This document shows, one piece after another, positions 2,904 through 34,360 of a stretch of DNA of 34,360 bases. The translations under genes and the position numbers were made by a program. This DNA is from a virus. A model generated the notes under the pieces. The model was not told the DNA's origin and did not search any database. It was given only the letters and a program-made list of their open reading frames with translations. Numbering within the stretch: the stretch's first letter is position 1; each line of letters starts with the position of its first letter. Where the stretch lies: IMG/VR virus record IMGVR_UViG_3300028735_000019, positions 1 to 34,360 of that record; one strand, 5' to 3'.

Positions 2904-3256
2904 AGGCTATGGCTTTCAAGTTCAGATATTCGGGTTTTAAGGCTTCGGTTTTCCTGCAGCAAATCCGATACTTTATTCTCCAGGGTATGTACTTCTTGCT
3001 TCAGGCTTCGATTTTCGTCAAGTAATTGAGATACTTTGTTTTCCAGTGAGTTTACTTCTGTTCTTAAATTTTTATGCTCAATTTTTAAATCCTCCATCAT
3101 ATTGCGGTAAATCTCCAGGCCTTTTTCTATGTTTTCCAGTTCGTTGCTTTTGGTTTCGGCTTTTTGCTTTCTACGGCCAAAAAGCCAGGTAACAAAACCA
3201 CCGCCCAACGTACCGAGGGTAGTCCATAACCAAGATATATCAAAATGATCATTCAC
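2900..3256 (-). CDS. Single-TM coiled-coil protein, holin-like candidate
   Basis: The 118-aa protein has one N-terminal hydrophobic segment (residues about 7-27, ISWLWTTLGTLGGGFVTWLFG) followed by a basic stretch GRRKQK and a long coiled coil. Within the coiled coil a 21-residue unit is repeated almost exactly (LENKVSQLLDENRSLK and LENKVSDLLQENRSLK), and the 63-nt DNA repeat is visible at about 2940-3065. The start is GTG (3256-3254), sharing one base with the TAG stop of the fibre-like gene; no in-frame ATG lies nearby. Its place directly before an endolysin suggests a holin or another membrane lysis protein. A single TM with a long coiled coil is not a classical holin, so the function is tentative. 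Confidence 0.5.
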   Translation of the reverse strand: MNDHFDISWLWTTLGTLGGGFVTWLFGRRKQKAETKSNELENIEKGLEIYRNMMEDLKIEHKNLRTEVNSLENKVSQLLDENRSLKQEVHTLENKVSDLLQENRSLKTRISELESHSL

Positions 3257-4689
3257 TATTGAAACGGTAATAAATAAAATTCTTTGAAGTAATACTTATT
3301 ACTTTCATTAGTAGGCAAAACAGCAACAAATAATGGGTTTCGCAATAATGTATAAAAACCATTATCATTACTGAATATTAGATTAGAAAAAGGTATTAGC
3401 TTTCCATCATTGGCAAGAATAAAAAGCCTGGAGAATAAATCATTTGAAAAAGAATATGAGCCGTCTATTTCGAAAACAGAGGGGTATTTTGTTTTTAAAA
3501 TTGCATTTGCTCCTGATATATTAACAATTTGCCCAATAAATAATTCTTCAACAACACCACTATTAGGTAAGACATTTTGTTGTATTGTATCAACATTAAA
3601 AAAGCTATATAAAGTATAAATTTCAACGATATCATCATAGCTCGTTGGAATATTATTATAATATAGCCTTATGGCAGTTGTTTCTAAATTGAAGGAAAAA
3701 TAACTAGATAATGAAATATCATTAGTCAGATAGTCTAAAAGCTTTTCAGAAAATTGTTCTAAATCATCAGGCCAATATAAATCAGCTAAAAGCTCTCCCG
3801 TTGTATTTGCATTTAATATATCAGCAAGAGAAATATTTATCTGATTAGGGCCGATGTTAAAAGATAAAATAAATGAATTTGCTGTTTGCAGGTTATTATC
3901 ATTCCCAGTAACAATATTACCAACCGTTATTTTTGGCGTATTAGAAGCAAACGCCAAAGAATTTCCTGCTGTACCAGCATATTCTTGACCAACCTCCCAA
4001 GTAAAAAGATTATTGTCAAAATCAAAAGTAAGAGTACCCTCGTTTAAAGGCCCCCAATAATCATTTAAAACATCAGATATTAATAAAAGAGAAGAATTTA
4101 AATCATCAGATACAGAGAATTCAGTATTGCTAGAAGGATATTCACGAGCAGTAAAAACAACACCATTTAAAGTAAAATACTCCCCATCAGTATCTAAAGG
4201 TGCAGAAAAAGCAAATTGAACTTTTCGTTTTGTTGGTTTTGTAGGCAATATTTTTGATTCAATAAGCCATTCCCCTGATACGCCAGGAGTGTCAGGTTGC
4301 CTATATGACAAATCGACCTTGTTACTGTTATTTAGTATACAAGCTCGACCTATAAGCGTATTATCAAAATTATCAATCAGACTATCACTAGCAGGAAGTA
4401 TAATATAATCATCACTAACGCCCTCTGCAAGAATAATCTCCCACTTATTAGGATCAAATATGCCAGAAGTGTTTTCCTTACATATGTAAAACTTTAAACC
4501 GGCTCCGCTATCGTATAAGCAAAGATCATCTATATAATAAGGTCTATCAGTTTGATAAAGAATGTTATCTTTCTTCTGCCAGATATTCTTTAAAAGAATC
4601 TGAAGTGCATTTCCAGAAATTGCACCTATGTTATTACTGTATACGGTTGCAGTAATATTATCTGAAATGTTTTTCCATTGGCTTGGCAT
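3256..4689 (-). CDS. Probable tail fibre or receptor-binding protein
   Basis: The 477-aa product looks like a modular fibre. Residues 30-90 hold a region typical of phage fibre N-termini or carbohydrate-binding modules (YIDDLCLYDSGAGLKFYICK, then SGIFDPNKWEI). A middle domain contains LNGVVFTAREYPSSNTEFSV, and the C-terminal half is rich in Asn, Ser, Leu and aromatic residues. The coding DNA is visibly richer in A+T than the flanking structural genes, consistent with recent exchange of a host-range determinant. It is followed without a gap by the lysis genes. Its 5' leader holds a perfect 8-bp inverted repeat two bases before the ATG and a TGTCCTTT motif. Receptor binding is inferred from composition, position and modularity. 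Confidence 0.5.
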   Translation of the reverse strand: MPSQWKNISDNITATVYSNNIGAISGNALQILLKNIWQKKDNILYQTDRPYYIDDLCLYDSGAGLKFYICKENTSGIFDPNKWEIILAEGVSDDYIILPASDSLIDNFDNTLIGRACILNNSNKVDLSYRQPDTPGVSGEWLIESKILPTKPTKRKVQFAFSAPLDTDGEYFTLNGVVFTAREYPSSNTEFSVSDDLNSSLLLISDVLNDYWGPLNEGTLTFDFDNNLFTWEVGQEYAGTAGNSLAFASNTPKITVGNIVTGNDNNLQTANSFILSFNIGPNQINISLADILNANTTGELLADLYWPDDLEQFSEKLLDYLTNDISLSSYFSFNLETTAIRLYYNNIPTSYDDIVEIYTLYSFFNVDTIQQNVLPNSGVVEELFIGQIVNISGANAILKTKYPSVFEIDGSYSFSNDLFSRLFILANDGKLIPFSNLIFSNDNGFYTLLRNPLFVAVLPTNESNKYYFKEFYLLPFQ

Positions 4690-4690
4690 G

Positions 4691-4710
4691 GTGCTAAATT
4701 ATTTTAGCAC
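4691..4710. promoter_or_regulatory. Inverted repeat in the leader of the fibre-like gene
   Basis: GTGCTAAA and TTTAGCAC form a perfect 8-bp inverted repeat around TTAT, one base away from the minus-strand ATG at 4689. As DNA it could be an operator in the divergent region with the plus-strand HTH gene. As RNA it would be a short stem just before the start codon. Confidence 0.4.
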
Positions 4711-4716
4711 ACCCGG

Positions 4717-4757
4717 TTTGGAAAGGACAGGCAAAAGCGTTAAATTTACCTAACGAT
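4717..4757 (+). promoter_or_regulatory. Possible promoter and operator of the small HTH gene
   Basis: TTTG (4717-4720) and TAAATTTA (4741-4748, one base off TAnnTTTG) are 20 bp apart, as in Bacteroidota promoters, and lie just before the ATG at 4770. CTAACGAT (4750-4757) overlaps the expected start of transcription. The same octamer forms an inverted repeat at 6409-6430. Confidence 0.35.
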
Positions 4758-10415: not shown

Positions 10416-10952
10416 CTAGAGGACAGGGATTTTGGATATAAAGGCTACGGTCTCCACGTAGTGGAAATAACCGTCTTTATCGTTGGCCGGATCTCTTTGT
10501 TTCCAGCTAACTGTATCGTACAAGTTGGCATTTACATTCATCCTTTCCCAGCCATAGCCTTTGTATTCAAAATCGTGTACGATTACAATGCCCGCTTTTT
10601 TCTCAAACATGAGATTGGCAGTTTCTGGGCGGCTGTCTGCGTGGCCGTCTATAAAAGCCAAATCGATGTGGTCAGGATATTCCAGGGCAAGAAATGCATC
10701 GGCACCCAAAGAAAGGTGCAGATCCAGCTGATTCTTTTTCAGCTGTGCTGCATGTTTATTTTTTATGGCTTGGTACCATGCGGGTTCTTGCATTTCTATG
10801 GACATAACTTTTGCACCGGAATTGAGAAACAATTCGGTGCTGAAGTTACCGGGGCCAAACTCCACAATTTGTTTTGGCTGATAGGCGGCAAGCAGTACCC
10901 TAAGTAAGGGTAAATGGCTGGAGTAAGGATCTACAATGTGTGAATTTTCCAT
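10416..10952 (-). CDS. Class I SAM-dependent methyltransferase
   Basis: The 178-aa protein has the Rossmann methyltransferase order. Motif I is QIVEFGPGNFSTELF (about residues 33-47), with the glycine-containing loop for SAM. A following strand ends in an acidic residue (AKVMSIEMQEP). LAFIDGHADSRPET (about 97-110) is of the Methyltransf_24/TylF type, and a later strand is AGIVIVHDFEYKG. Such enzymes often methylate sugars or small molecules. It overlaps the glycosyltransferase gene by 22 nt, so the two probably act together on one product. It is not needed for virion assembly in known phages, which marks it as cargo. Confidence 0.7.
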   Translation of the reverse strand: MENSHIVDPYSSHLPLLRVLLAAYQPKQIVEFGPGNFSTELFLNSGAKVMSIEMQEPAWYQAIKNKHAAQLKKNQLDLHLSLGADAFLALEYPDHIDLAFIDGHADSRPETANLMFEKKAGIVIVHDFEYKGYGWERMNVNANLYDTVSWKQRDPANDKDGYFHYVETVAFISKIPVL

Positions 10953-11647
10953 GTTACGGCATTGATGGTTTCAGTTTGAATCTTATCGTTTTTATTCAGG
11001 GTTTGGCTTATGCTGTGAGCATGCGGCCAGTTTCGGCTGATGCGGTAATCGTATTCGCGGTGAGCTCTTACTACTCTTGGAATACCGAGCTTGTTTAGTT
11101 CAATGCTGATGTAAATATCTGTCATGTTTGCCCGTGGAAACATTTCCAGTGTGGGCTTGAAAGTATCGGTATGAAATGCCATCACTCCGGTACCAATTTC
11201 ATGCACAAAACGATCAGAGGAAACGGTAGCCAGGCAGCCAAGAAATTCTTTGCAATCCCAATAATAGGTTTTGCACGGACGATCTGTATGAAAAATTCGC
11301 CCATGGTTACTTATAACAGCTTTTCGATTGTACTTTTCAATGGTTTCAATCATCACTTTTGTGTGATTGCCCGGATAGATGATTTTATCATCGGTGGTAA
11401 ATATGTAGGCATTATTCCATTCTTCACATAAAAAGAACTTTCCTACATCGCCCAGGTCACCATATTCTTTTTCGCTTTCAAATATTCTGATTTTGGGGTG
11501 ACGGGCAAAATGCGGAATGTTTCCATTCCAGCCATTAAAATAAAGATTGATGATGTCTGCCTGAGGCAAGATACTGGCCAGGCACTCCTGGAGTGCTTTT
11601 TCCCGCGATGGGATGGTTGCCATGTTGTAAATAACGGGTGTTTTCAT
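10931..11647 (-). CDS. GT-A type glycosyltransferase
   Basis: The 238-aa protein starts MKTPVIYNMATIPSREKALQE, the opening strand and loop of a GT-A (GT2-like) fold, continues with ILPQADIINLYFNGW and IRIFESEKEYGDLGDVGKFF, and carries ITTDDKII-like sequence (YIFTTDDKIIYPGNH), the acidic metal- and nucleotide-sugar-binding site. A later RANMTDIYISIELNKLGI matches the acceptor-side acidic region. The start was placed at ATG 11647; the longer frame would run into the terminator hairpin. The gene follows a terminator and overlaps the methyltransferase gene. The likely target is a virion protein or a host surface glycan, which cannot be decided here. Confidence 0.7.
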   Translation of the reverse strand: MKTPVIYNMATIPSREKALQECLASILPQADIINLYFNGWNGNIPHFARHPKIRIFESEKEYGDLGDVGKFFLCEEWNNAYIFTTDDKIIYPGNHTKVMIETIEKYNRKAVISNHGRIFHTDRPCKTYYWDCKEFLGCLATVSSDRFVHEIGTGVMAFHTDTFKPTLEMFPRANMTDIYISIELNKLGIPRVVRAHREYDYRISRNWPHAHSISQTLNKNDKIQTETINAVTWKIHTL

Positions 11648-11650
11648 AAA

Positions 11651-11682
11651 ATAAAAACCCTCCACGTTTGCAAGGAGGGTTT
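11651..11682 (-). terminator. Rho-independent terminator after the capsid block
   Basis: AAACCCTCC and GGAGGGTTT pair perfectly over a 10-nt loop (11655-11682). On the minus strand the stem is followed by TTATTTTA. It lies between the 75-aa gene and the glycosyltransferase start, so it would end or reduce transcription from the capsid genes into the cargo pair. Confidence 0.75.
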
Positions 11683-21504: not shown

Positions 21505-21876
21505 ATGAAACCACACGAAAGGCTTCAAAGGGTATTAACAGTCTTAGCCATAGACCAAAAGGAGATTGCCAAGAAGATTGGCATACACGAAGTATCTGTT
21601 AGCAGGATGGTTAACGGTGTACAGTATCCCAGTTTTGAAACACTGGCTTCATTAAAGAAGCACTATCCGATGATTAATATCAATTACCTGGTATCAGGTG
21701 AAGGACCTATGTTCATGTCAACCGATGGCCTTAGTTTAACTAATGAGGAACAATTTTCATATGGTTTACAGGGAATGGAAAAGATATTGAAGGAATTTAC
21801 AGAGGTAAACAGTGCATTATTGGACTTTTTAAAAGCCAATACACCAGCAAAAAGTTCACAGTACCAAAAAAAGTAA
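21505..21876 (+). CDS. XRE-family repressor (CI-like)
   Basis: The 123-aa protein has an N-terminal XRE HTH: RLQRVLTVLAIDQKEIAKKIGIHEVSVSRMVNGVQYPSFETLASLKKHYP, with the recognition helix near EVSVSRMVNG (about residues 29-38), then a linker with NYLVSGEGPMF and a C-terminal coiled coil (EKILKEFTEVNSALLDFLKA), probably for dimerisation. No peptidase domain is present, so it is not a LexA/CI self-cleaving repressor. It lies on the plus strand between the early unit and attP, which is where the lysogeny repressor of a temperate phage is expected. Its last codons contain an integrase arm-type repeat (21854-21863). Confidence 0.75.
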   Translation: MKPHERLQRVLTVLAIDQKEIAKKIGIHEVSVSRMVNGVQYPSFETLASLKKHYPMININYLVSGEGPMFMSTDGLSLTNEEQFSYGLQGMEKILKEFTEVNSALLDFLKANTPAKSSQYQKK

Positions 21877-22044
21877 TTGATAATCAGCAAGAATGAGCAT
21901 TGAAAGAGTCCCGTCCAGACCGCTAAAAGCCTCGGGAATCCCGAGGCTTCGTTGTTTAACGAGCAATTATGCTGCTTTCAAAGGCTCATTTTTTCGCTGT
22001 TGGTTCACAGTAGGTTCACAGTAGCAAAAAAAAGGTTCACAGTA
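21854..22044. other. attP: tRNA-Asp-like core flanked by integrase arm sites
   Basis: The core (21906-21923, GAGTCCCGTCCAGACCGC) is the 3' end of a tRNA with T-stem CCCGT and acceptor CCAGACC, followed by discriminator G. This fits a Bacteroidota tRNA-Asp, and a terminator hairpin follows at once, as after a host tRNA gene. Four copies of GTTCACAGTA flank it: 21854-21863 on one side and 22003-22012, 22014-22023 and 22035-22044 on the other. The last is just before the integrase start. This is the arm-core-arm layout of lambda-type attP sites. Confidence 0.75.
21927..21949. terminator. Terminator hairpin within the attP core
   Basis: AAGCCTCGGG and CCCGAGGCTT form a perfect 10-bp stem with a 3-base loop (AAT). 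It lies directly after the tRNA-Asp-like 3' end, so it is probably part of the host-derived core and restores tRNA termination after integration. It may also end the repressor transcript. Confidence 0.7.
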
Positions 22045-22046
22045 AA

Positions 22047-23222
22047 ATGCAGCATATGATAACATTCAATTTTGTGTTGAGGTCAGATTTCTCCAATTCT
22101 AAAGGAGAAGCCCCTATTTCATTAAGGATCATCGGGAAAAATTCATCCGGAAAAAAGAAAAAGAAGGATATTTCCATGAGGATGAAGGTGCGTCCGGAAA
22201 TATGGAATCCTGTTCGGCAACGGATTGATTCTAAACAGCAATCGGAAATTGATAAGAACTACATTCTTTCAAAAGAGGAAAGCAAGTGCAGTGATATTCT
22301 TACACGATACCGGCTGATGGGAATAACTCCAACCATCGAAGAGTTTGAGGATCTTTACAAAAGGTATCAGGAGAAACTTCATCTTACTTCTTTTATTGAA
22401 CATACTATAAAAGAAATAGCTGAAAAAAGAGCTGTTTCTAAAAGTACAATTACCCAATACCTTACTTTTTTGGATTGCATTAAAAAGCTTTTTCCGGCTT
22501 TGCCATTAAGCCAGTTGTCGTTGAATCATATAGAACATTTGGATGGTTATCTGATAAATCAGGGATATGCTCACAATACCCGGTGGAAGTATCATAAGAA
22601 CTTCAAAAAGTTTGTTCATCTGGCCGATAAAAAGAACCTTTTATTCCGTAATCCATATACAGAATTCAAAATTAAAAAAGGTCCAGGAAGAATAGTTTAC
22701 CTAGAATCATACGAGCTGGAGAAAATGATAGCCATATATAAGGAAGATATTCCGGAAACCTATAAAAAGGCTTTGGCTCGCTACCTGTTTTCATTTTATT
22801 GTTGTGGACTTCGTATATCAGACATACAAAGAGTTGGGTGGGAAGATATATCCGGAAACAATCTGAGAGTTTTGCCAAAAAAAACCGCTCGGTTTTTAAA
22901 GGTACTGGATATACCTGTAACAGAACAAATGCTTAGTTATATAGAAAACAGCACCGGATTGTTTTTTACCCGTATGCCGGAAGCAACAATCAATAAGGCA
23001 TTGAAGGAAGTTGCAAAGCTATGTAATATACATAAGCCAGTAACCTTTCATACTGCCCGGCATACGTTTGCTACGTTATTTCTAGAATCCGGAGGTAAAA
23101 TTGAAGTCTTAAAAGATCTTTTGGGCCACAGCAAAATGGAAGATACTATGGTTTACGTCCACATAAGCCGTTCCCGAAAAAAATCATCGCTTCATGCTAT
23201 GTTTGACTACATCATCCGGTAG
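22047..23222 (+). CDS. int: Tyrosine recombinase integrase
   Basis: The 391-aa protein has a Bacteroidota-type arm-binding start (MITFNFVLRSDFSNSKGEAP), a SAM-like core-binding domain (FIEHTIKEIAEKRAVSKSTITQYLTFLDC) and a catalytic domain with Arg256 (CCGLRISDI), His335-x-x-Arg338 (HTARHTFA), His361 (LLGHS) and the nucleophile Tyr370 (MVYVHIS). It would catalyse integration at the tRNA-Asp gene and excision, the latter normally with an excisionase that I did not identify. The start could be ATG 22047 or 22056. The arm-type site ending at 22044 would let the integrase repress its own gene. Confidence 0.9.
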   Translation: MQHMITFNFVLRSDFSNSKGEAPISLRIIGKNSSGKKKKKDISMRMKVRPEIWNPVRQRIDSKQQSEIDKNYILSKEESKCSDILTRYRLMGITPTIEEFEDLYKRYQEKLHLTSFIEHTIKEIAEKRAVSKSTITQYLTFLDCIKKLFPALPLSQLSLNHIEHLDGYLINQGYAHNTRWKYHKNFKKFVHLADKKNLLFRNPYTEFKIKKGPGRIVYLESYELEKMIAIYKEDIPETYKKALARYLFSFYCCGLRISDIQRVGWEDISGNNLRVLPKKTARFLKVLDIPVTEQMLSYIENSTGLFFTRMPEATINKALKEVAKLCNIHKPVTFHTARHTFATLFLESGGKIEVLKDLLGHSKMEDTMVYVHISRSRKKSSLHAMFDYIIR

Positions 23223-23233
23223 TGTTATATTTG
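23202..23233 (+). promoter_or_regulatory. Bacteroidota-type promoter TTTG-N20-TATATTTG
   Basis: TTTG (23202-23205) and TATATTTG (23226-23233) match the -33 and -7 consensus TTTG and TAnnTTTG with a 20-bp spacer. It lies across the end of the integrase gene. Transcription would start at about 23238-23240, at the foot of the structured RNA that follows. Confidence 0.75.
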
Positions 23234-23236
23234 TAT

Positions 23237-23336
23237 GCCCGCATTTTACAAAGTACAAAAGTCTCCGGTTGTTGGAGATCCGGTGAAAGTCCGGTGCAGT
23301 ACTTTGTATTGCGGGCCCACCAATAACCGGTTTTTT
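23237..23336 (+). ncRNA. Riboswitch-like structured leader of the 75-aa gene
   Basis: The leader folds compactly. P1 has two helices: GCCCGCA (23237-23243) with TGCGGGC (23310-23316), 7 bp, and TACAAAGTAC (23247-23256) with GTACTTTGTA (23299-23308), 10 bp. P2 is TCTCC/GGAGA around the loop GGTTGTT (23267-23273). P3 is CCGG/CCGG around TGAAAGT (23284-23290). The whole P2 loop can pair with AATAACC (23322-23328). Alternatively 23265-23275 pairs over 11 bp with 23320-23330, followed at once by six T and the ATG. The P3 region (CCGGTGAAAGTCCGG) resembles the P4 loop of cobalamin riboswitches, but most of that family's conserved parts are missing. Confidence 0.6.
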
Positions 23337-23564
23337 ATGACAGCCATTGAAATTATCCTCCAAAGCTTTGAGCCAGCGCCTGAAATGTCCGTAAAAACAA
23401 TGCTATTTACCACCCGCCAAATGATTAACCTGGTATCATGTATCATTGAAGTATCAGAAGATGAAATGGCTGATGATTTAAAGTCAGCAGGTTTTAAGCT
23501 ATATCTGCAAGAAGATGATGGAGAGCCTGTTGGTTTTAAATGGATGGTGCTTAAAAAAGATTAA
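23337..23564 (+). CDS. Small protein controlled by the structured leader
   Basis: The start at ATG 23337 gives a 75-aa protein (MTAIEIILQSFEPAPEMSVK...). The longer frame to 23235 is rejected because its ATG lies at or before the expected transcription start and its extra codons are the structured leader. The protein has a helical middle (LFTTRQMINLVSCIIEVSED) and AGFKLYLQEDDGEPVGFKWMV, a pattern of a small winged-helix or HTH-type domain with a beta-hairpin wing. It may be a DNA-binding protein such as an excisionase or regulator, but no family is certain. Its 3' end overlaps the convergent exported-protein gene by 4 bp. Confidence 0.6.
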   Translation: MTAIEIILQSFEPAPEMSVKTMLFTTRQMINLVSCIIEVSEDEMADDLKSAGFKLYLQEDDGEPVGFKWMVLKKD

Positions 23565-32107: not shown

Positions 32108-32614
32108 TTATATGCTAAAGTCTTGAATGATGTCGTGTGGTTGTATGTTGAGTTCTGCACTGGTTAACACGGTAAACGTGCACATTTTGCCAATGATATT
32201 ATCACCTATAGCCGGCACTTCAAAAAAGGAAAAACTGTTCATGTCCAGATCACGAAGTCCGTTCATGGCTCTGCCCTTATCCCGTTTCATTTTGGCAACT
32301 ATTTTTTTCATCACCACATCCAGGTCTGCCTTTACCTGCATTTTATCAGTCGGTGCAAGGTTCCGGGCTTTTTTAAAAAGCCCGAAGGTGTAAAACTTGG
32401 TTTCCTGCACATTATCAGCCAGCCTTTCTACGTATCGGCTTTCGTCGTTATCAATGGCAACAATGCATGGAAACTTCATGGTTCTGGTAGCCATGAGCAA
32501 GCCTTCCATGTTATTAATGCTGTCGGCAACAAAAAAACGGCCATCGGCTGTACCATTTCCCAGTAACACCAGATTGGCGGCCATGGCCTCAAAGTATGCT
32601 GTGAAGTTAAACAT
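32108..32614 (-). CDS. Head-tail joining or tail-terminator-like protein
   Basis: The 168-aa protein begins MFNFTAYFEAMAANLVLLGN and has strands (KFPCIVAIDNDESRYVERLA, ETKFYTFGLFKKARN) and a long helix (ADLDVVMKKIVAKMKRDKGR), then a beta-rich end. It lies between the portal/connector side and the tape measure, where tail-terminator or joining proteins are expected. I do not recognise a named family. It overlaps the upstream 301-aa gene by 8 nt. Confidence 0.55.
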   Translation of the reverse strand: MFNFTAYFEAMAANLVLLGNGTADGRFFVADSINNMEGLLMATRTMKFPCIVAIDNDESRYVERLADNVQETKFYTFGLFKKARNLAPTDKMQVKADLDVVMKKIVAKMKRDKGRAMNGLRDLDMNSFSFFEVPAIGDNIIGKMCTFTVLTSAELNIQPHDIIQDFSI

Positions 32615-33512
32615 TTGTTTTAGCTGATTTTAGTTTTTTCTGAGCCGCTATTTCATCTTTCCGGGCGGTTTCTATTCTCTGTAAAACCGTGTACAGATAG
32701 ATATTATCTATCTCAGCAACCTTGGTTACATCACCTCCTGAAAGGCGATCTTTTAAAATCTGGAATTGCTGAAACGGATCTGAAGCCGGTTTATCATCAT
32801 CCGGTTCGCCGAAAGTATTGGGGTAATTGTATGAAAGCAGCTTGCAGCATCCTTCCCAAAAAAACAAGGTGGCCAGCTTCAGTTCTCCAGGAATGGCAGA
32901 AACTATTTTAGCATCCTCATCTAAACGGTATTCATTCAGGGGCTCCCGGCAATCTCCTTTATACGCTTCATCCGTTGGTTCCAGTGCCTTTTTTCTGTAC
33001 ATGATAGCCATAAAGAGATCCAGGTATTTTGTATCCTGGCTCTTTTGGAATCGGTAATAAAAGGTATTTGCCAATTCCCATTCTTTATAAACCAGATTGG
33101 TAAGCTTGTCAGCCGGTCCGGCATACGTTACTTTATCAATGATAATTTCCGGAAATTTATTGGTGCTCAGCTGGCTTGATATCTTCAAGTGCACCTGATT
33201 ATCTTTTCCGGTAACTTCCTCAAACAAAAAATCAAACGAGGAGGAAAGAAAAGCAAGATCGGCTGCTGTAATCCAGGCAAATTCTCGGGGTTTAATTTCA
33301 ATAAGAAATGTGCTTTGGCCCATGTATTCACCTTTTCTCTTTTTGCCTGATGCTTTCCACCCATGATGTGCCATCAGCACTTTGAGTTTAAATTCAGAGG
33401 CAGGCATTTGCTCTACACTAAGCAAGGCTATTTTACGCAACGAGTCGGCATTGAGTTCATCCCACTTGGATGGATTTTCGAAGCGATGATGATTAATCAG
33501 TAGCTGCTTCAC
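32607..33512 (-). CDS. Conserved structural-operon protein, 301 aa
   Basis: The protein is mostly helical after a short start. Segments include TFLIEIKPREFAWITAADLA and KWELANTFYYRFQK-like sequence (VYKEWELANTFYYRFQKSQD), LDLFMAIMYRKKALEPTDEA, and DRLSGGDVTKVAEIDNIYLY near the end. Proteins of this kind stand after the connector gene in Bacteroidota prophages, but the function is not known. The start is GTG (33512), overlapping the connector stop by 4 nt (GTGA); no in-frame ATG lies near. The start is therefore less certain. Confidence 0.55.
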   Translation of the reverse strand: MKQLLINHHRFENPSKWDELNADSLRKIALLSVEQMPASEFKLKVLMAHHGWKASGKKRKGEYMGQSTFLIEIKPREFAWITAADLAFLSSSFDFLFEEVTGKDNQVHLKISSQLSTNKFPEIIIDKVTYAGPADKLTNLVYKEWELANTFYYRFQKSQDTKYLDLFMAIMYRKKALEPTDEAYKGDCREPLNEYRLDEDAKIVSAIPGELKLATLFFWEGCCKLLSYNYPNTFGEPDDDKPASDPFQQFQILKDRLSGGDVTKVAEIDNIYLYTVLQRIETARKDEIAAQKKLKSAKTNV

Positions 33513-34360
33513 AGAGAAGCCCCTCCACCGGCCAGAAAGAATCCGTTATTATCTGAATTTTCAAAGCGATTGTAGCTTGCTCCGGCCTGATAGGTGGAAG
33601 ATTGCTCATACAGCGGATAGTCTGATATGTTTGCATCCATGATCTGCCGGGCCTGAATCATGTAATTATAACCGGTGTCGTATTGTTCCCGGCTTCCGTC
33701 TATCTTTCCTTTGGTAAGATATGCCACGGCAGGCCTTATCAGGTCTAGTACTTTTTTATTGGCCGGGCTAACAGCATTTGCAGTTACTTGCGTTTTTATT
33801 TGCGTGGCCAGCTCCGGACTGATGGCGGGAACCACAACAAGGTTTTCAATGTTGGCTATTTCCTGCCACATACGCATGTAAGTGAGCCTGCTTTGATCAA
33901 TATTTACATATTTATCAAACTCTTCGGCTGAGTTGATGAAAAGCTGATTGTTCAGGGTATATCCGGACGAACTTACCCAAGCTGCATAGTTTGCTTTATT
34001 GAGCTCCAAAAAGCGCAGCATTTCTTCAATCCAAAACCAACCTAACTCTGCCCGGTTATCATGAAATGATTTTACCCGTTCTTTACTGGCAGGGGCAAAT
34101 TGCTGATTGCTGATTACGGCAAACCCTCCCTCGGTAACCTGCAAGTCCAGATCGGGAGTCATCATAGAAAAGGCGAACTGCGCTACAGCCTTTTGTGTGT
34201 ATGGCAGCAGGGCAGAGTAATGTGGATTGCTGGTAAGAGGATCAGTATTATACCAGGCATCCAATGCACTTAAAAGTGCATCGCCCAGGTATTTTCTAAG
34301 AAACTTTCGTTGGGCTGCATCCACATACGGCAAAAAATCAGGCACCTCAAATGTGATGTT
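33509..34360 (-). CDS. Head-tail connector-like protein (DUF6712-like), main part cut by the window end
   Basis: This is the larger piece of the gene begun at 247 on the left copy. It stays open to the last base. Joined across the ends, it encodes 299 aa. The N-terminal part (PDFLPYVDAAQRKFLRKYLG) and the helical segments (LGWFWIEEMLRFLELNKANY) fit DUF6712-type connector proteins. The C-terminus is Gly-rich (GFFLAGGGASL). It follows the portal in translation order and precedes the 301-aa gene, with a 4-nt overlap. Confidence 0.7.
   Translation of the reverse strand, partial: NITFEVPDFLPYVDAAQRKFLRKYLGDALLSALDAWYNTDPLTSNPHYSALLPYTQKAVAQFAFSMMTPDLDLQVTEGGFAVISNQQFAPASKERVKSFHDNRAELGWFWIEEMLRFLELNKANYAAWVSSSGYTLNNQLFINSAEEFDKYVNIDQSRLTYMRMWQEIANIENLVVVPAISPELATQIKTQVTANAVSPANKKVLDLIRPAVAYLTKGKIDGSREQYDTGYNYMIQARQIMDANISDYPLYEQSSTYQAGASYNRFENSDNNGFFLAGGGASL
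34162..34360. repeat. Right copy of the contig-end direct repeat
   Basis: This is the second copy of positions 1-199 with one difference (34234 t against 73 g). It is an assembly overlap of a circular or permuted genome rather than a long terminal repeat of the virion, because it lies within a gene and has no boundary feature. Confidence 0.95.

Follow-up and report, generated by a model that had tools for sequence, protein, structure and literature searches.

Genomic context

The stretch of DNA analysed here (34,360 nt, hereafter the window) is the virus record IMGVR_UViG_3300028735_000019. Its two ends (1–199 and 34162–34360) share 199 bases with a single mismatch, and this terminal direct repeat indicates a phage genome of about 34.16 kb that is either circular or circularly permuted. 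The temperate phage in the window is complete or nearly so, and its terminase and integrase mark it as distant kin of Flavobacterium phages such as 6H and of Cellulophaga phage Ingeline. In the region of interest, a repressor-like HTH gene is followed by the integrase gene (int), the leader studied here, a 75-aa ORF and then convergent late genes (Table 1). The annotation of phage 6H has no gene between the integrase and the convergent late genes, so the leader and the ORF look like an inserted cassette. Amid the late genes of the window, at 10416–11665, lie two further ORFs, one methyltransferase-like and one glycosyltransferase-like.

In the interval between repressor and integrase (21853–22044), GGTTCACAGTA occurs four times, once with a mismatch, and a hairpin with perfect pairing, AAGCCTCGGGA/TCCCGAGGCTT, spans 21927–21949. 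These repeats and the hairpin probably represent the integrase arm sites and the attP region.

Table 1. Features of the integrase–leader–ORF region of the window (T in place of U; L002 is the homologous phage described in the text)
Feature	Position	Strand	Basis and remarks
Tyrosine integrase (Phage_integrase, SAM_5, Arm-DNA-bind_5)	22047..23222	+	Domain matches; upstream of leader
Putative Bacteroidota-type promoter, TTTG-N20-TATATTTG	23202..23233	+	Sole pattern match in window; within conserved island
P1a 5' strand, GCCCGCA	23237..23243	+	MFE fold; pairs with 23310–23316
P1b 5' strand, TACAAAGTAC	23247..23256	+	Pairs with 23299–23308; A23251 is G in L002
P2 hairpin	23262..23278	+	Fold; stem 23262–23266/23274–23278; loop can pair with tail in both sequences
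P2 loop, GGTTGTT	23267..23273	+	G23271 is A in L002
P3 hairpin, CCGG-TGAAAGT-CCGG, T-loop-like loop	23280..23294	+	Fold; stem 23280–23283/23291–23294; invariant in two sequences
P1b 3' strand, GTACTTTGTA	23299..23308	+	T23304 is C in L002
P1a 3' strand, TGCGGGC	23310..23316	+	MFE fold
Tail, AATAACC	23322..23328	+	Complementary to P2 loop; A-rich initiation element; –15 to –9 of ATG
Alternative 11-bp helix, then T6 at 23331–23336	23265..23330	+	23265–23275 with 23320–23330
75-aa ORF	23337..23564	+	Predicted winged-helix fold, acidic, without family match

The putative promoter straddles the 3' end of int and the beginning of the intergenic region. Its –7 element, TATATTTG at 23226–23233, fits the TAHHTTTG consensus established in F. 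johnsoniae, where 4–5 nt separate this element from the transcription start (PMC6847099). Applying that spacing places the predicted start at 23238/23239, at the foot of the closing stem of the leader, as an earlier note on this DNA had proposed. Chance alone would give about 0.87 matches to the promoter pattern across the window, compared to the one observed; hence the pattern itself is not rare, and its weight as evidence lies in its position at the foot of P1.

The same note had described the product of the downstream ORF as a possible DNA-binding protein. The best AlphaFold2 model (pLDDT 89.6, with only two input sequences and a spread of 55 to 90 across the five models) shows the element order H-S-H-H-S-S, as in a winged helix. 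Family searches with the protein gave no match, and Foldseek with the model gave none that was significant at E 0.001; among its non-significant viral matches are segments of VapE/D5-type primase-helicases as well as small phage proteins that are uncharacterised. With VIA-align the best match reached Z 7.3, and winged helices obtained middling scores, in a range typical of a common fold. While the predicted fold is thus in line with the earlier description, DNA binding is doubtful and not favoured, as the protein is acidic (pI 4.4, charge –7.5; pI values 4.4 and 5.0). A role in lysogeny would be a guess.

Predicted structure of the leader

The sequence and coordinates of the 100-nt leader (23237–23336, + strand) agree with the earlier description of a folded RNA ahead of a small ORF. 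Its minimum free energy (MFE) is –35.7 kcal/mol (z –3.96), a value that none of 200 shuffled sequences reached, and it ranks within the three lowest of the 2742 100-nt folds scanned on both strands. In the MFE fold, the closing stem consists of P1a (7 bp) and P1b (10 bp), separated by a small internal loop, and encloses the hairpins P2 and P3, whose loops both measure 7 nt; this bears out the closing stem and the two hairpins noticed earlier. The predicted junction is three-way.

All seven bases of the P2 loop are complementary to the AATAACC tail, with one G-U pair. This match, also reported earlier, is real; however, seven-base complementarity also arose in 5% of cases when the tail was shuffled and in 20% when the loop was, and on its own it is weak evidence.

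The 11-bp helix that the earlier note saw as an alternative, with six T directly after it, exists as described. One reading of it is a transcription attenuator, in which the helix and T6 would form the intrinsic terminator while P2, together with P1, would act as antiterminator. The 11-bp complementarity is rarer than the loop–tail match, occurring in just 0.8% of tail shuffles, and in the homologue described below the helix is entirely Watson-Crick and likewise abuts T6. Its energy, though, is –28.6 kcal/mol versus –39.5 kcal/mol for the P1/P2/P3 form, and it is the weaker form by 11 to 13 kcal/mol in both sequences. Moreover, P1 would already be complete when the tail is transcribed, and the terminator loop would measure 44 nt. 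Thus the elements of a terminator switch are present, but switching through them, though possible, is energetically unfavoured, and we regard attenuation as an improbable function of the leader.

The compact fold, the terminal T-run and the predicted promoter would also suit a stand-alone small RNA that acts in trans, is some 100 nt long and has T6 as its 3' end. Against this, no strong terminator hairpin lies beside the T-run on the + strand, and the ORF begins right after the T-run in both phages. Such an RNA seems distinctly unlikely here.

Conservation in a second phage

A single homologue was found, IMGVR_UViG_3300044998_001391 (L002), with an identical arrangement of int, leader and ORF. 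The two phages are 96.6% identical across an island (23200–23346) that extends from the –33 box to just past the ATG, compared to 77% in int, 78% in the rest of the ORF and 75% downstream. The leader is conserved far beyond its surroundings (binomial P = 4e-9), and other intergenic stretches of the same diverged region are 86–87% identical, versus 97% for the leader. One caveat is that these phages are mosaics, in which recent exchange has left 26% of aligned 100-nt windows with at least 97% identity; near-identical blocks are seen, for instance, at 3036–4755 and around 32355–33325, in genomes otherwise 75–87% similar. High identity is therefore nothing special across the window as a whole, and it is the difference from the immediate surroundings that carries the argument. 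A short recombination tract could still conceivably account for the island.

Only three changes separate the two leaders. A23251G and T23304C affect the two bases of one P1b pair, which goes from A-U to G-C, while G23271A, in the P2 loop, converts the G-U pair with the tail to A-U. Hence all 33 pairs (33/33) are kept, through one double and one one-sided change between two sequences. When three changes were placed at random, retention of all pairs together with one compensatory change was seen in 1% of trials if all changes were transitions, and in 0.2% otherwise. The compensatory change that the earlier note would have sought among homologous leaders is thus present in the one homologue, in P1b, and the loop–tail pairing is retained. 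P1a, P2 and P3 are invariant in both sequences, so covariation says nothing about them.

P3, the loops and the tail are conserved between the two phages to the same degree as the stems. This bears on the view that the leader is a passive 5' structure, in which P1 stabilises the mRNA or insulates it from integrase read-through and nothing switches. P1 does start at the predicted transcription start and is very stable, but a plain stabilising stem needs no fixed loops, and we consider a purely passive role unlikely.

The leader contains a long inverted repeat and adjoins the integrase gene, as might a DNA element such as attP or a dyad for a repressor or recombinase. In the window, however, the G-U of the loop–tail pairing can form only in RNA of the + strand, an argument, at this single site, against a DNA dyad and against a − strand RNA. 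P3 and the loops, furthermore, are as well conserved as the arms. The attP reading in particular was rejected, since repeats of the kind found at integrase arm sites, the four copies of GGTTCACAGTA, precede int and make an attP on that side more likely. Overall, we deem it very unlikely that the element acts as DNA.

No stop codon interrupts the reading frame across the leader in either phage, and a 109-aa ORF beginning at ATG 23235 could in principle be translated, in which case the conservation would be that of a protein. When the leader is read as codons, 34 of 34 third positions are identical, compared to 53% and 65% in the flanking genes, and all three changes fall on first or second codon positions. 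These data point to constraint on the nucleotides rather than on a protein. As the ATG also lies upstream of the predicted transcription start, translation of this ORF is hardly credible, and the coding reading of the leader was rejected on the strength of the identical third positions.

Searches for further members recovered only L002, whether DNA was searched in phages and plasmids, degenerate patterns were run against contigs (three patterns in viral contigs, one in genome contigs) or the 75-aa protein and the integrase were used as queries, singly and as alignments. Other matches to the degenerate patterns fold differently and were discarded as chance. A covariance model gave no match in 395 Bacteroidota genomes, 396 genomes of one family or related phages; built from two near-identical sequences, this model could let distant members escape. 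Two sequences are too few to call a family. On the basis of these comparisons, the leader may be regarded as a candidate orphan RNA, not a proven riboswitch.

Relationship to known RNAs

The earlier note had likened P3 to a hairpin of cobalamin riboswitches and pointed to the corresponding Rfam models. Neither the window nor either leader gave an Rfam match above threshold, cobalamin models RF00174 and RF01689 included. The AdoCbl model (RF01482) scored 13.6 bits for the window and 16.1 bits for L002, against a gathering cut-off of 50, and was the only one of the three cobalamin models (RF00174, RF01482, RF01689) to give any match. These scores stem from a shared GGUGAAA-UCC hairpin. Neither GCCACTG nor GCCAC, as expected of a B12 box, occurs in 23200–23345. 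Given the low scores, the missing B12 box and the three-way junction, a cobalamin riboswitch was rejected, and the proposed kinship comes down to a T-loop-like hairpin.

Cobalamin/AdoCbl riboswitches, especially those of class II, do carry in P4 the T-loop hairpin core GGUGAAAnUCC that is also found in P3 of the leader. Another likeness is the pairing of a hairpin loop with a ribosome-binding stretch, seen as L5-L13 in the env8 cobalamin riboswitch (PMC10907184). However, cobalamin riboswitches have a four-way P3-P6 junction with an L4-L6 T-loop contact, whereas the leader has a three-way junction and one T-loop-like hairpin with no L6 partner. Its P2 loop, moreover, pairs with a single-stranded tail, and the gene behind it is not a B12 gene.

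The leader is also akin to manA and wcaG, candidate cis-regulatory RNAs carried by phages, which are orphan structured leaders defined by comparative genomics (Weinberg 2010, PMC2864571). Those two motifs, in contrast to the leader, sit in cyanophages ahead of metabolic genes, and the leader has no Rfam match. The int-alpA and STAXI motifs are structured RNAs that, like the leader, adjoin integrase genes; int-alpA lies between int and a small DNA-binding gene. No Rfam family matches the leader. STAXI is a pseudoknot motif (PMC2864571). HMP_4078, a phage-associated, palindromic RNA candidate of 109 nt that occurs in Bacteroidetes close to D5 and phage integrase domains, resembles the leader by description alone and may be related or unrelated (PMC8040213). 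The leader is thus not described in Rfam, and a riboswitch is one possibility for what it may be.

Proposed action on translation

Initiation in F. johnsoniae, which proceeds without a Shine-Dalgarno sequence, is promoted by an A-rich motif at –14 to –11, near bS1, and lowered by structure around the start (PMC6847099). The loop–tail pairing of the leader, at –15 to –9, would span this A-rich element. We infer a transcript, a pseudoknot that forms in the cell, an effect on translation and a trigger, which would act together as follows. Transcription would begin at 23238/23239, at the foot of P1, and P1, P2 and P3 would fold ahead of tail synthesis. The P2 loop could then pair with AAUAACC and mask the A-rich element used by Bacteroidota ribosomes, which would reduce initiation on the 75-aa ORF. 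Loosening of the loop–tail pairing, be it by a metabolite, a protein, a ribosome or a small RNA, would turn the gene on.

Masking of the A-rich motif is the best-supported way in which the leader might act. Our preferred reading, which we hold to be somewhat more probable than all others combined, is that the element forms a structured 5' untranslated region ahead of a small phage gene with its own promoter, and that it most likely regulates translation as a cis-acting RNA. A bolder version would make it a new, very compact class of ligand-sensing riboswitch, in which a three-way junction, a T-loop hairpin and a loop–tail pseudoknot mask the A-rich element and tie a host metabolite to a prophage gene; we think this version rather doubtful, if a little less so than attenuation or a passive role.

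The leader is real, conserved and structured, and it most likely acts on translation of the gene behind it. Bacteroidota do without Shine-Dalgarno sequences and, to our knowledge, control of translation by leaders is poorly known in this phylum. A conserved phage leader with a loop that pairs to the A-rich substitute for the Shine-Dalgarno sequence would be a direct test case, and phage-borne regulatory leaders, of which there are few, would gain an orphan RNA.
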